From Oscillospiraceae bacterium (GTDB lineage Bacteria > Bacillota > Clostridia > Oscillospirales > QAMX01), in assembly GCA_015067715.1 (NCBI GenBank), contig SVLY01000003.1, forward strand, positions 35,574 through 99,573: a stretch of DNA of 64,000 bases, written 5' to 3'. Of the stretch, positions 20,878 through 34,616 are shown piece after piece. Both the position numbers and the translations under genes were made by a program. Under the pieces are notes generated by a model that saw only the letters and a list, made by a program, of their open reading frames with translations, ran no database searches and was not told where the DNA came from. Numbering within the stretch: position 1 is the stretch's first letter; each line of letters starts with the position of its first letter.

Positions 20878-21295
20878 AAAAAGCTCCCTTTTTATGGCGT
20901 AATGTCCTTATGGGACATTACGCCAACGAAATAAATCCCTCACGGGATTTATGAAATATCCTATGGATATGAAATATTGCTTCGCAATGTGAAATACGCT
21001 GCGGCGTATCGGGATTTATTTCATTTCACGTTCGGGCGCAGTCCGAATATTTCACAATTCTCGAAGAGAATTATTTCACATTTTGCGTCAGCAAAATATT
21101 TCAATAAAAAGAAAGAGAAGGAACAACCGATAGGTTGAGCCTTCTCTTTTTCTGTTGCAAGTGGGTTCGGGCAACTGCCCGACTGCATTTGTGCATACAA
21201 ATGCGATGCCGGTTCTTTTCAGCAGAAATGATAGAAAACGGTGCTTTCTAAAATTCTCCGTTAAGAACACAATCCTATCCAAAAGGGAGCTTTTT
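20878..21295. repeat. Hairpin-rich intergenic element bounded by a 15-bp inverted repeat
   Basis: This fills the 437-bp gap between two convergent genes. The ends are AAAAAGCTCCCTTTT (20878-20892) and its exact reverse complement (21281-21295). Inside is a run of short hairpins: GGCGTAATGTCC/GGACATTACGCC, AAATCCC/GGGATTT, ATATCC/GGATAT, ATTGC/GCAAT, ATACGC/GCGTAT, TTCGG/CCGAA, AATTCTC/GAGAATT and ATTTTGC/GCAAAAT. They are separated by TGAAAT on the left and ATTTCA on the right. Then come GAGAAGG/CCTTCTC, TCGGGC/GCCCGA and GCATTTGT/ACAAATGC. Non-coding repetitive element or structured RNA; small ORFs here (for example 21088-21282 minus) look like by-products. Confidence 0.75.
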
Positions 21296-28262: not shown

Positions 28263-28361
28263 GTTATATTCGCCTTCGGCGAGTTATATTGCTGCGCAGT
28301 TATATTCGCCTTTGAGGCGAGTGATATTGCTACGCAGTGATATTCGGCCTTCGGCCGAGTT
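28261..28361. repeat. Array of five short hairpins after galE
   Basis: The word AGTTATATT or AGTGATATT alternates with small palindromes: CGCCTTCGGCG, GCTGCGC, CGCCTTTGAGGCG, GCTACGC and CGGCCTTCGGCCG. Layout is like the array at 20.93-21.11 kb but with a different spacer word. Starts at the galE stop and ends shortly before its terminator. Confidence 0.8.
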
Positions 28362-28378
28362 AAACAAAAGATAAAAAT

Positions 28379-28582: not shown

Positions 28583-28618
28583 TTGACATTTGACGGTCAC
28601 ACTGGTAAACTATATCAT
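28583..28618 (+). promoter_or_regulatory. Promoter of the purine riboswitch operon
   Basis: Two overlapping options: TTGACA with 17 bases to TAAACT, and TTGACG (28590) with 17 bases to TATCAT (28613). Either starts transcription shortly before the riboswitch aptamer. Confidence 0.65.
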
Positions 28619-28653
28619 GCGAGTTTACCCGTAACAGAATATGCTTTGATCGC

Positions 28654-28720
28654 TCGATACATAACAAATGATACGGATTTGAAGTTTCTGCCCGGACGCC
28701 GTAAATGACCGGACTATCGA
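28654..28720 (+). promoter_or_regulatory. Purine (guanine-class) riboswitch aptamer
   Basis: Matches the purine riboswitch plan. P1 is TCGATA/TATCGA. P2 is CAAAT/ATTTG with loop GATACGG. J2/3 is AGTTTCTGCC. P3 is CCGG..CG with CG..CCGG, and its loop CCGTAAA equals the loop of the B. subtilis xpt aptamer. The base equivalent to position 74 is C (GACTAT), which in known aptamers selects guanine or hypoxanthine over adenine. J2/3 reads CTGCC where the consensus is CTACC, so the base equivalent to A52 is G, a deviation near the ligand pocket. Downstream nucleoside transport and xpt genes agree with purine control. Confidence 0.92.
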
Positions 28721-28777
28721 CCGCATTGGAAATGCGCCGATAGGGGGGAGTTTTTTCCTTTATCGGCCTTTCTTTTC
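28714..28777 (+). terminator. Riboswitch expression platform: antiterminator and terminator
   Basis: Antiterminator: CTATCG (the 3' P1 strand) pairs with CGATAG at 28738, enclosing GCATT/AATGC. Terminator: CCGATAgg (28737) pairs with CCttTATCGG (28766) before a T-rich tract. P1, antiterminator and terminator exclude one another, so ligand binding should stop transcription. Confidence 0.88.
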
Positions 28778-28854: not shown

Positions 28855-30039
28855 ATGAAAAAGTATCTTGCCCTGCTTCTCGCACTGGTCATGGTCTTTT
28901 CCTTTGCTGCCTGCGGCAACAACGGCGAGGACAAAACCGCGGATTTTAAGGCCGGTTTCATCTTCCTTCACGATGAAAACTCCACCTACGACCTTAACTT
29001 CCTGAACGCTGCCAAGGAAGCCTGCGAAGCCCTTGGCGTTGAGTACGTCATCAAGGTCAACATCCCCGAGTCCGAAGCCTGCTACGACGCTGCCGCCGAG
29101 CTGGTTGACGACGGCTGCACCTACATCTTCGCCGACTCCTTCGGCCACGAGCCCTATATGCTCCAGGCTGCCAAGGAATTCCCCGAGGTTGAGTTCTGCC
29201 ACGCTACCGGCACCCAGGCCCACACCGCCGGTGTTCCCAACTATCACAACGCTTTCGCCAACATCTACGAAGGCCGTTTCCTGGGCGGCGTTGCTGCCGG
29301 TCTTAAGCTCAACGAGATGATCGCCGCCGGCGAGTTCACCGCTGAAGAAGCCAAGGTTGGCTACATCGGTGCATTCCCCTACGCCGAAGTTATCTCCGGT
29401 ATGACCTCCTTCTTCCTGGGCGTCCGTTACGCCTGCCCCTCCGCCACCATGGACGTTACCTTCACCAACTCCTGGTACGATCCCACCCTTGAGCAGGAAG
29501 GCGCTGTTAAGCTCATCAACAACGGCTGCAAGCTCATCTCCCTCCACGCCGACTCCATGGGCGCTCCCACCGAGTGCCAGAACAAGGGTGTTCCCTTCGT
29601 CTTCTACAACGGCTCCGCTATGGACGCCTGCCCCGACACCTACATCGTCGCTTCCTACATCAACTGGGCTCCCTACATGACCTACTCCATGCAGGCCGCT
29701 ATGAACGGCGAGACCATTGCTGCTGACTGGAACGGCACCCTCGAAAACGGCGGTGTTGCTCTTAAGGAGCTCAACGAGAACGTCGCTGCCGAAGGCACCA
29801 AGGCCAAGCTTGAAGAAGTCAAGGCCGCTCTGCTCAACGGCTCCATCAAGGTCTTCGACACCTCCACCTTCACCGTCAACGGCCAGACCCTCACCAGCTA
29901 CATGGCCGACGTTGACGATATGGGCGACTTCGTTCCCGAGACCGAAGCCATCTCCGGCGGTTACTTCCACGAGTCTGAATACCGTTCCGCTCCCTACTTC
30001 GATATGTTCATCGACGGTATCACCAACCTCGACGCCTAA
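28855..30039 (+). CDS. BMP-family nucleoside ABC transporter substrate-binding lipoprotein
   Basis: Extracytoplasmic binding protein of the basic membrane protein (BMP/Med/NupN) family, which binds purine nucleosides. The ATG at 28855 follows TAGGAGAG; the track's start at 28780 lies in the riboswitch terminator. The leader MKKYLALLLALVMVFSFAAC ends in a lipobox Cys near residue 20. The mature part begins with ADFKAGFIFLHDENSTYDLNF and has GRFLGGVAAG, as in this family. Strongly biased codons suggest high expression. It is the first gene of the riboswitch operon, ahead of its ATPase and two permeases. Confidence 0.93.
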   Translation: MKKYLALLLALVMVFSFAACGNNGEDKTADFKAGFIFLHDENSTYDLNFLNAAKEACEALGVEYVIKVNIPESEACYDAAAELVDDGCTYIFADSFGHEPYMLQAAKEFPEVEFCHATGTQAHTAGVPNYHNAFANIYEGRFLGGVAAGLKLNEMIAAGEFTAEEAKVGYIGAFPYAEVISGMTSFFLGVRYACPSATMDVTFTNSWYDPTLEQEGAVKLINNGCKLISLHADSMGAPTECQNKGVPFVFYNGSAMDACPDTYIVASYINWAPYMTYSMQAAMNGETIAADWNGTLENGGVALKELNENVAAEGTKAKLEEVKAALLNGSIKVFDTSTFTVNGQTLTSYMADVDDMGDFVPETEAISGGYFHESEYRSAPYFDMFIDGITNLDA

Positions 30040-30190: not shown

Positions 30191-31720
30191 TTGGAGACCA
30201 AAGTTGCCAGCGTCAAAATGCGAAACATCACCAAGTCGTTCGGCCCGGTAATTGCAAACGACAGAGTGTGGTTGGACATCTATAAGGGAGAGATCCTTGC
30301 CCTGCTGGGAGAAAACGGCAGCGGCAAGACCACCCTGATGAATATGCTTTCCGGTATTTACTATCCCGATGAAGGCGACATTTTCATAGACGACAAGAAG
30401 GTCGTCATCCGCTCCCCCAAGGATGCCTTTGCCCACAGGATCGGCATGATCCACCAGCACTTCAAGCTGGTCGACGTGCTCTCCGCCGCCGAGAATATAA
30501 TTCTCGGCCTTGAGGGCAAGCTGGATCTCAAGGCCGCCTCTGAAAAGATCCGCCAGATCTGCGACGCCTACGGCTTCGAGGTCGACCCCGACCAGAAGAT
30601 CTACGATATGTCCGTCTCCCAAAAGCAGACCGTTGAGATTGTAAAGGTTCTCTACCGCGGCGCGGACATTCTTATCCTGGACGAGCCCACCGCCGTTCTC
30701 ACCCCCCAGGAGACAGAAAAGCTCTTTGCGGTTCTCCGCAACATGAGAAACGACGGAAAGGCCATCGTCATCATCACCCACAAAATGCACGAGGTTGAAG
30801 AGCTTTCCGACCGCGTTGCCGTTTTGCGCCACGGCCAGTTCATCGGCGACATGCTGACCCGGGACACCAACGCCCAGGAAATGACCAATATGATGGTCGG
30901 CCACTCCGTCACTCTTAACATCGACCGCCCCGAGCCCGTTGACCCCAAGCCCCGCATCGAGGTCAGAAACCTTACCGTCCGCTCCATCGACGGCATTTTA
31001 AAGCTCCAGGACGTCTCTTTCACCGCCATGAGCGGCGAAATTCTTGGCATTGCCGGCATTTCCGGCAGCGGTCAGAAGGAGCTGCTTGAGGCCATCGCCG
31101 GTCTTCAGCCCGTTGAAAAGGGCTCTATCTGCTACGTTGAAGAAGACGGTACCCACGACGAGCTTCTGGGCAAGGACCCCCTCCGTATTGCCGAAAAGGG
31201 CATCGCCCTTTCCTTCGTCCCGGAGGACCGGTTGGGAATGGGTCTCGTTGGCGCAATGGACATCAGCGACAACATGATGCTCCGTTCCTTCAGAAAGGGC
31301 AGGAGCATCTTCACCGACCGCAAGAGCCCCCGCAAGCTGGCTCAGAAGGTCGTCCGCGACCTTGACGTAAAGACCCCCAACATTGAGACCCCCGTCAGCA
31401 AGCTCTCCGGCGGCAACGTTCAGAAGGTGCTGGTCGGCCGCGAGATCGCCGAAGCTCCCAAGGTCCTGCTCACCGCCTACGCCGTGCGCGGTCTGGACAT
31501 CAACTCTTCCTACACCATTTACGAGCTGCTCAACCAGCAAAAGAAAAAGGGCGTCGCCGTTATCTACGTCGGCGAGGACCTGGACGTGCTTCTTGAGCTC
31601 TGCGACCGCATTCTGGTGCTCTGCGCCGGAAAGGTCAGCGGCATCGTTCCCGGCAGAGGCGCCAAAAAGCGCGACGTCGGCATGATGATGACCCGTCTTG
31701 GAGGTAACAGCAATGAATAA
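30191..31720 (+). CDS. Nucleoside ABC transporter ATP-binding protein (two ATPase domains)
   Basis: Cytoplasmic ATPase with two fused ABC domains (509 aa), as in the NupO/RbsA type. Domain 1 has Walker A GENGSGKTT near residue 43, a signature YDMSVSQKQ and Walker B ILILDEPTAVL. Domain 2 has a degenerate Walker A region (GISGSGQKE), the signature LSGGNVQK and KVLLTAYAVRGLD in place of a normal Walker B, an asymmetry common in this family. The start is TTG with GGAGGA nine bases upstream. It overlaps the first permease gene by 8 bp. Confidence 0.95.
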   Translation: METKVASVKMRNITKSFGPVIANDRVWLDIYKGEILALLGENGSGKTTLMNMLSGIYYPDEGDIFIDDKKVVIRSPKDAFAHRIGMIHQHFKLVDVLSAAENIILGLEGKLDLKAASEKIRQICDAYGFEVDPDQKIYDMSVSQKQTVEIVKVLYRGADILILDEPTAVLTPQETEKLFAVLRNMRNDGKAIVIITHKMHEVEELSDRVAVLRHGQFIGDMLTRDTNAQEMTNMMVGHSVTLNIDRPEPVDPKPRIEVRNLTVRSIDGILKLQDVSFTAMSGEILGIAGISGSGQKELLEAIAGLQPVEKGSICYVEEDGTHDELLGKDPLRIAEKGIALSFVPEDRLGMGLVGAMDISDNMMLRSFRKGRSIFTDRKSPRKLAQKVVRDLDVKTPNIETPVSKLSGGNVQKVLVGREIAEAPKVLLTAYAVRGLDINSSYTIYELLNQQKKKGVAVIYVGEDLDVLLELCDRILVLCAGKVSGIVPGRGAKKRDVGMMMTRLGGNSNE

Positions 31721-32924
31721 AAACAGAGAACCTCTTTTCCATATTTCAAAGCGCGGCGATATGCCCTGGTATTTCGGCTGGGGAGTGAGAGCGGCATCCA
31801 TCCTTCTGGCACTTCTGGTCTGCGGAATTATCAGCTCGCTGGTCACCTCCGAAAACCCCATTCAGATCTACGGTACCATTTTTGACGGCTCCTTCGGCTC
31901 TGTCCGCAAGTTCATGGTATTGCTTCAGAACATTGCCATGCTCCTGTGCATTGCCCTTGCTCTCACACCCGCATTTAAGATGCGCTTCTGGAACATCGGC
32001 GGCGAAGGTCAGGCTCTGGCCGGAGCTTTGGCCGCGGCGGCCTGCATGATCCTTATGAAGGATCTGCCCAATATCGTCGTCATTCCCTGTATGTTCATCA
32101 CCAGCATTTTGGCCGGCGCTCTCTGGGGCGCCATTCCCGCCGTTTTCAAGGCGAAATTCGGCACCAACGAGACCCTTTTCACACTTATGATGAACTACGT
32201 TGCGATCCAGCTGGTTGCCTATTTCTCAGTGGTCTGGGAAAACCCCAAGGGCTCCGGCAGTATCGGCGTTATCAACCCCCTCACAAAGATCGGCTGGTTC
32301 CCCGACCCCTCCGGCATAAAGACCGCCATCGGCGACTTCCTCGCAAACGGCTGGATAGCCGACTTGCCCTTCAGCCAGGCCCTTGAAAACCTCTTCATCA
32401 AGTCCGAGTGGCTCTTCGACATTCTCTGCTCCAAGTACACCGTCAACATCGTCATCGTGGCTCTGGTCACCGTTGGCATGTACATCTACCTCAACTACAC
32501 CAAGCACGGTTACGAGATCTCCGTCGTGGGCGAAAGCGAGCGCACCGCAAGATATATCGGCATCAAGGTGGACAGGGTCATCCTCCGCACCATGCTGATC
32601 TCCGGCGCCATCTGCGGTCTTGCCGGTCTGCTGCTGGTGGGCGGCACCAACCACACCCTCAACGCCGACATCGTTGCCGGCAGAGGCTTTACCGCGGTCA
32701 TGGTTTCCTGGCTTGCCAAGTTCAACCCCATCTGGATGGTGCTCACCAGCTTTTTGCTGGTCTTCCTTGAGAGAGGCGCCGGCGAGATCGCAACGGACTT
32801 CAGCCTGAACGCCTCCTACGGCGATATCCTCACCGGTATCATCCTCTTCTTCATCATTGGCGGCGAATTTTTCATCAACTACAAGCTCAGCCTGAAAAAA
32901 TCTTCTAAGAAGGAGGAGAAATAA
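31713..32924 (+). CDS. Nucleoside ABC transporter permease 1
   Basis: 403-aa integral membrane permease of the BPD_transp_2 family, homologous to the NupP type. Starts at ATG 31713, overlapping the ATPase stop, with GGAGG just upstream; the track start is five codons earlier. About ten hydrophobic helices, with the typical FWNIGGEGQALAGALAAA motif and GYEISVVGESERTARYIGIK, the conserved cytoplasmic loop that contacts the ATPase. Forms a heterodimer with the next gene product. Confidence 0.93.
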   Translation: MNKNREPLFHISKRGDMPWYFGWGVRAASILLALLVCGIISSLVTSENPIQIYGTIFDGSFGSVRKFMVLLQNIAMLLCIALALTPAFKMRFWNIGGEGQALAGALAAAACMILMKDLPNIVVIPCMFITSILAGALWGAIPAVFKAKFGTNETLFTLMMNYVAIQLVAYFSVVWENPKGSGSIGVINPLTKIGWFPDPSGIKTAIGDFLANGWIADLPFSQALENLFIKSEWLFDILCSKYTVNIVIVALVTVGMYIYLNYTKHGYEISVVGESERTARYIGIKVDRVILRTMLISGAICGLAGLLLVGGTNHTLNADIVAGRGFTAVMVSWLAKFNPIWMVLTSFLLVFLERGAGEIATDFSLNASYGDILTGIILFFIIGGEFFINYKLSLKKSSKKEEK

Positions 32925-32926
32925 CA

Positions 32927-34012
32927 ATGTTTGAAGCCATTCTGTCTTTCCTCCCCCGCGCCGTTTCCCAGGGTATCCCCCTGCTTTACGGCTCCACAGG
33001 CGAGATCATAACTCAGAAATCCGGAAACATGAACCTGGGTATTCCCGGCGTTATGTACGTTGGCGGTATCTGCGGCGTTATCGGCGCATTCATCTACGAA
33101 CAGAGCCTTCCCTCTCCCGAGGCCATGATCCCCTTCTTTGCGGTGCTCATTCCCCTGCTGTTCTGCCTGCTTGGCTCACTGCTGATGGGCGCGCTCTTTT
33201 GCTTCCTCACCGTCACCCTCAGAGCCAACCAGAACGTCACCGGTCTTGCCATGACCACCTTCGGCGTGGGCTTTGGCAACTTCTTCGGCGGCTCCCTGGT
33301 CAAGCTGGCCGGCGCCGATATGCCCTATCTGGCACTCACTGCCACCTCAAACTGCTTTAAAAAGACCCTTCCTCTGGCCGCGATTCTCAACTCCTGGGGA
33401 GACAGCATTGACGAGGCCTGCGGCAAAATGGGCGTCTTTGGGGACAAGCTGGGCAACGTTATCGACTTCATCTTCGACGCTTTCGGTGAGGTCCTGCTGA
33501 ACTACAGCTTCCTTGTTTACCTTGCCATCATCATCGCCCTCATCGCATCCTTTATTATCAACCGCACCCGCACCGGTCTTCACCTTCGCGCCGTTGGCGA
33601 AAACCCCGCCACCGCAGACTCTGCGGGCATCAACGTCAATCTCTACAAGTACGTTGCCACCTGTCTTGGCTGTATGATCGCAGGTCTTGGCGGACTTTAC
33701 TACGTTATGGACTACGCCAACGGCATCTGGGCCAACAACGCCTTCGGCGACAGAGGCTGGCTGGCCATCGCTCTGGTCATCTTCACCGTGTGGCGCCCCA
33801 ACGTCGGCGTTGTGGCATCCTTCCTCTTTGGCGGCCTTTACATTCTCCATATGTACATCCCCTCCGGCATGAACCTTGCCGTTAAAGAGCTGTACAAAAT
33901 GCTGCCCTACGTTGTCACTATCATTGTTCTGATCATCTCCTCTCTGAGAAACCAGAGAGACAAACAGCCGCCCCAGTCACTGGGTCTGCCCTATTTCCGG
34001 GAAGACCGATAG
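32927..34012 (+). CDS. Nucleoside ABC transporter permease 2
   Basis: 361-aa membrane permease, second half of the channel. The N-terminal LYGSTGEIITQKSGNMNLGIPG is the family motif of NupQ-type permeases and TGLHLRAVGENPATADSAGI is the ATPase-contacting loop. ATG 32927 follows AAGGAGGAG with two bases between the genes. Completes the transporter: binding protein, ATPase and two permeases, in the order of the B. subtilis guanosine importer nupNOPQ. Confidence 0.93.
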   Translation: MFEAILSFLPRAVSQGIPLLYGSTGEIITQKSGNMNLGIPGVMYVGGICGVIGAFIYEQSLPSPEAMIPFFAVLIPLLFCLLGSLLMGALFCFLTVTLRANQNVTGLAMTTFGVGFGNFFGGSLVKLAGADMPYLALTATSNCFKKTLPLAAILNSWGDSIDEACGKMGVFGDKLGNVIDFIFDAFGEVLLNYSFLVYLAIIIALIASFIINRTRTGLHLRAVGENPATADSAGINVNLYKYVATCLGCMIAGLGGLYYVMDYANGIWANNAFGDRGWLAIALVIFTVWRPNVGVVASFLFGGLYILHMYIPSGMNLAVKELYKMLPYVVTIIVLIISSLRNQRDKQPPQSLGLPYFREDR

Positions 34013-34034: not shown

Positions 34035-34616
34035 ATGAACTTTCTTGAAGAACGCATTATCAAAGACGGTAAAGTCAAGCCCAACAACGTCCTCAAGGTG
34101 GACAGCTTTCTCAACCACCAGATGGACATCTCTCTCATGGAAGAGATCGGCCGCGAGTTTCGCCGCCGCTTTTCGGACAAGCAGATCACCAAGGTTCTCA
34201 CCATCGAGGCTTCCGGCATAGGCATTGCCTGTTTTGTGGCAAAGGAGTTCGGCGTGCCCATGGTGTTTGCCAAAAAGTCACACTCCATCAACATCGACAG
34301 CGAAGTTTACATCGCCCAGGTCGAGTCCTTCACCCACAAGAACATCAACAACATCGTCGTATCAAAGCAGTTCATCACCGCCGAGGACCGCGTTCTTATC
34401 ATCGACGATTTCCTTGCCAACGGCTGCGCCCTGCAGGGGCTCATCGGCATTACCAAGTCCGCCGGAGCAACCGTCGAGGGTATCGGCATCGTCATTGAAA
34501 AGGGCTTCCAGATCGGCGGCCAGATCATCCGCAACCTCGGAATTCAGCTGGAGTCCCTTGCCATCGTAGACGCCATGGACGCCGAGACCGGCACCGTGAC
34601 CTTCAGAGAACAGTAA
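34035..34616 (+). CDS. xpt: Xanthine phosphoribosyltransferase
   Basis: 193-aa salvage enzyme forming XMP from xanthine and PRPP. Shows the PRTase motif VLIIDDFLANGCALQGL near residue 120, with the ASGIGIACFVAKEFGVPMVFAKK region typical of Xpt. RBS GGAGG, 22 bp after the permease. Its place at the end of a guanine-riboswitch operon is the classic arrangement for xpt genes. It extends the salvage range beyond Hpt. Confidence 0.96.
   Translation: MNFLEERIIKDGKVKPNNVLKVDSFLNHQMDISLMEEIGREFRRRFSDKQITKVLTIEASGIGIACFVAKEFGVPMVFAKKSHSINIDSEVYIAQVESFTHKNINNIVVSKQFITAEDRVLIIDDFLANGCALQGLIGITKSAGATVEGIGIVIEKGFQIGGQIIRNLGIQLESLAIVDAMDAETGTVTFREQ

Follow-up and report, generated by a model that had tools for sequence, protein, structure and literature searches.

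A probable guanine-type riboswitch with a rare C22-G52 pocket-roof pair upstream of a nucleoside/purine importer and xpt

Computational analysis of the window, i.e. the whole 64,000-nucleotide stretch of DNA under study, revealed a purine riboswitch aptamer in which the usual U22-A52 pair is replaced by C22-G52, a double change that is rare among sampled aptamers. The aptamer is followed by a terminator-type expression platform and by genes for an ABC importer and xanthine phosphoribosyltransferase (xpt). We consider it likely that this is an OFF riboswitch of the guanine-I type for the nucleoside/purine importer and xpt, with a rare isosteric swap in the roof of its binding pocket. In this explanation, C22-G52 would keep the pocket and guanine recognition, with U51 and C74 unaltered.

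Aptamer architecture and the pair at positions 22 and 52

The Rfam purine riboswitch model RF00167 matches positions 28635-28736 of the forward strand (55.2 bits, gathering score 37, E 1e-6), and a whole-genome search returned this riboswitch as the single match. The aptamer core, comprising P1, P2-L2 and P3-L3, lies at 28652-28722 (+; 71 bits with the R1 model), and no gap is needed to align its 71 bases with 11 guanine-type aptamers of the same order and phylum. With positions numbered after B. subtilis xpt, the alignment shows canonical junction lengths, U47, U51, C74, the G46-C53 pair and the L2-L3 pairs, while L2 (GAUACGG, with G37-G38) and L3 (CCGUAAA, with C60-C61) keep the conserved loop bases. 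C74 (28714, +) is predicted to pair with a guanine ligand (PMC9295807); an adenine riboswitch, which requires U74, was rejected. A preliminary description of this DNA had assigned the aptamer to the guanine class and found both loops fitting, in agreement with these results. Its further claim that all stems fit needs qualification: the stems are present, but contain isolated mismatches, one C-C in P1, one A-A in P3 and, on the junction side of P2, two A-A. By minimum free energy, the bare aptamer folds otherwise than into the aptamer structure, and forcing P1 and the stems costs just 0.2 kcal/mol across the whole leader.

J2/3 reads G46-UUUCUGC-C54, which places a G at position 52 (28690, +), where A is otherwise invariant, and the alignment thus confirms the altered equivalent of A52 reported before. 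That report gave base 52 alone and overlooked position 22 (28660, +), a C in place of the U that all remaining 148 of the 149 distinct sequences carry. In solved purine aptamers, U22-A52, an isolated Watson-Crick pair, stacks on the ligand and sandwiches it together with A21-U75 (PMC13374515; PMC7139962). From the alignment and these structures, G52 is the predicted Watson-Crick partner of C22; the isolated 22-52 pairing is retained in the window aptamer and its usual identity lost. Because the two bases are partners, the exchange reads as a compensatory, isosteric swap in the pocket roof and not as a lone J2/3 change, and since C22 restores the pairing with G52, the pocket geometry is probably kept. 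The idea that G52 alone breaks the pocket was abandoned after C22 had been noticed. Although the identity of the 22-52 pair is near-invariant in our sample, we do not take it as defining the RF00167 guanine type.

Rarity of the swap

A covariance model was built and 158 aptamer rows were aligned. Of these, 58 represent the RF00167 matches in 394 genomes of the order, and 100 are the higher-scoring matches of a phylum sample. Among the 149 distinct sequences of this combined sample, U22-A52 occurs in 148 and C22-G52 in one, the window aptamer; half-changed forms at 22/52 are absent from the set, and U51 and C74 are constant throughout. Far from being common, G52 is thus found in 1/149 distinct sequences, and the preliminary description was right to call it non-consensus. 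As high-scoring matches are over-represented in the phylum set, pattern searches for C22 plus G52 were added. All matches in the 394 order genomes and 344 phylum genomes except that in the window failed the aptamer model, none of the 66 matches in 2.9 million viral contigs was a riboswitch by the model, and a looser pattern scan of the genome_contigs set gave no aptamer among the 80 loci listed. A second natural C22-G52 copy was therefore found neither in the sampled aptamers nor in the order, phylum and viral pattern searches, with the proviso that these patterns fix the junction letters and relatives with unusual junctions may escape them. Orthologous leaders in the family likewise held no further C22-G52 aptamer of guanine type, and a same-genus genome is without both the riboswitch and the Bmp lipoprotein. 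The lipoprotein gene closest to that of the window (81%; L288, genome G001) has a promoter-like, hairpin-rich leader with no riboswitch detected.

This uniformity bears on neutral drift, a sub-case of the guanine-I explanation in which the riboswitch works and the swap leaves affinity, kinetics and specificity unchanged. The exchange is isosteric and Watson-Crick and every base contacting the ligand edge is unaltered, as drift would have it, but free drift is unlikely for a pair that stays identical in 148 of the 149 distinct sequences, and we regard a neutral swap as possible, if rather doubtful.

Expression platform and downstream operon

By consensus scan only, a sigma-70-like promoter (TTGACA-17-TAAACT, with TG before the second hexamer) is predicted at 28583-28611 (+), overlapped by an alternative promoter ending at 28618 (+). 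Both hairpins of the switch named in the preliminary description were recovered, and both are strong: an antiterminator at 28714-28743 (+), in which an inner stem accompanies the pairing of 28714-28719 and 28738-28743 (-12.6 kcal/mol, z -3.4; seen in co-transcriptional folds), and an intrinsic terminator at 28736-28777 (+), with a 14-bp stem at 28736-28767 followed by CUUUCUUUUC (-18.6 kcal/mol, z -5.3; found by scan). The antiterminator takes bases from the P1 3' strand and from the terminator 5' arm and is mutually exclusive with the terminator, so that P1 closure and termination are coupled. In folds of the growing transcript, which are thermodynamic and leave out ligand and tertiary contacts, P1 forms first, the antiterminator from about 28742 and the terminator from about 28766. 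The shared bases and this order of folding together predict an OFF switch. Plentiful guanine would bind the aptamer and close P1, the 3' strand of which would then no longer pair with the terminator 5' arm; the freed terminator would form and transcription of the importer and xpt would stop.

A decaying or non-functional riboswitch, its changes reflecting relaxed constraint, would fit the mismatches in P1, P2 and P3 and the nearest ortholog in G001, which has no detected riboswitch upstream. However, the changes at 22 and 52 offset one another, and the pocket, the tertiary loops and both hairpins of the platform are preserved, making decay in our judgement highly improbable.

The genes downstream, all on the forward strand, encode a PnrA/Bmp-type substrate-binding lipoprotein of the purine nucleoside importer type (28855-30039; PF02608, E 2.9e-25), an ABC ATPase with two nucleotide-binding domains (30191-31720; two stretches matching PF00005), two ABC permeases (31713-32924 and 32927-34012; PF02653) and xpt (34035-34616; NF006671, 268.6 bits against a cut-off of 177; TIGR01744, 230.9 against 164.45). 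These matches corroborate the nucleoside importer with xpt that had been proposed from the letters. Canonical U22-A52 riboswitches of the same order lie upstream of Bmp lipoproteins (L006, L007, L011, L014; Pfam), purine permeases (L005, L010, L027; Pfam) and xpt-like ORFs (L002, L003, L021, L024; N-terminal sequences), and because they precede the same kinds of genes, gene context gives no reason to assume a new ligand. Other canonical purine riboswitches in the order were seen upstream of amidohydrolases (L018, L029) and of an FAD-dependent oxidoreductase (L004). The window also contains two matches to Gut-1 RNA, at 20924-21000 (68.5 bits) and 28297-28370 (51.2 bits), the latter some 280 bases ahead of the riboswitch.

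Ligand choice and relation to known classes

Three-way junction, junction lengths, U51, C74, G46-C53 and the L2-L3 pairs are shared with guanine-I riboswitches (RF00167, B. subtilis xpt-pbuX type), as are the predicted terminator OFF platform and the association with xpt and purine transport genes, whereas guanine-I has U22-A52 in place of C22-G52. With 2'-dG-I (RF01510, Mesoplasma florum), the window aptamer shares C74 and the C22-G52 pair, which is C31-G59 there. It differs from that class in U51 (28689, +), a guanine-type state where 2'-dG-I has C58, the equivalent of C51, in J2/3 (GUUUCUGC versus a GACCC-type strand) and in its genes, which serve import and salvage and not, as in the 2'-dG-I context, ribonucleotide reductase. 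Membership in 2'-dG-I was rejected: RF01510 (gathering score 51) has no match at the locus at E<=10, and its best match in the genome lies elsewhere, at 18 bits. Guanine-II and xanthine-II variants have the same scaffold, and guanine-II also shares purine salvage genes (PMC9295807). Both were discarded, as they need insertions in J2-3 and J3-1, which are absent from the gap-free alignment of the window aptamer, and G51, which xanthine-II combines with its insertions (PMC9295807), is lacking too.

The preliminary description had suggested a changed ligand, and one version of this idea is a nucleoside-leaning riboswitch in which guanosine or 2'-deoxyguanosine is tolerated or preferred by the pocket, maybe as an intermediate between guanine and 2'-dG-I. 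The RF01510 consensus (UAUACA in J1/2, GCC at the J2/3 end) indeed has C22 and G52, C31/G59 of 2'-dG-I align with positions 22/52 (PMC8872408), and the downstream importer is of nucleoside type. An effect on specificity is thus still conceivable because 2'-dG-I has the same C-G pair. Base 51, however, speaks against it: in PMC8872408, which cites binding work, U51C alone turns a guanine aptamer toward 2'-deoxyguanosine preference, and C51 is the nucleoside determinant, U at this place weakening dG binding 83-fold in 2'-dG-I. J2/3 is otherwise guanine-type (GUUUCU rather than GACCC), C22 compensates for G52, C74 and the junction lengths are canonical, and the importer and xpt are ordinary targets which canonical guanine riboswitches precede as well. 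Altered ligand choice is therefore possible but not favoured, a nucleoside-leaning riboswitch appears unlikely, and slightly less probable still is a natural intermediate on the way from guanine to 2'-dG-I, with C22-G52 plus U51 making the specificity dual or shifting it to guanine nucleosides. Judged from sequence, guanine would be the likeliest ligand, and the swap would do no more than adjust affinity, kinetics or the tolerance for related ligands.

A separate, diverged purine-type three-way junction was observed in front of xpt and a Bmp lipoprotein in two genomes of one genus of the same family (L293:575-641, +; L291:3460-3526, -). It has UACAGG in J1/2, UGACCGGC instead of GUUUCUACC in J2/3, and retains C74. 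The two copies are identical over 67 bases, with xpt DNA 93% identical, and resemble 2'-dG-I junctions, C22 included, while RF01510 gave no match. Absent from the other order genomes searched, this junction is possibly a separate variant class.

The window riboswitch itself is no evidence for a new class. The 22-52 pair is uniform in nearly all sampled guanine riboswitches and different in 2'-dG-I, and the window aptamer separates its role from that of base 51. Should the pair only tune, it would be a minor addition to the variation of a well-studied class; should the intermediate reading be true, it would show the order of ligand change within the class. A natural aptamer swapped at 22-52 only, with U51 and C74 kept, offers a clean test of ligand choice versus tuning.
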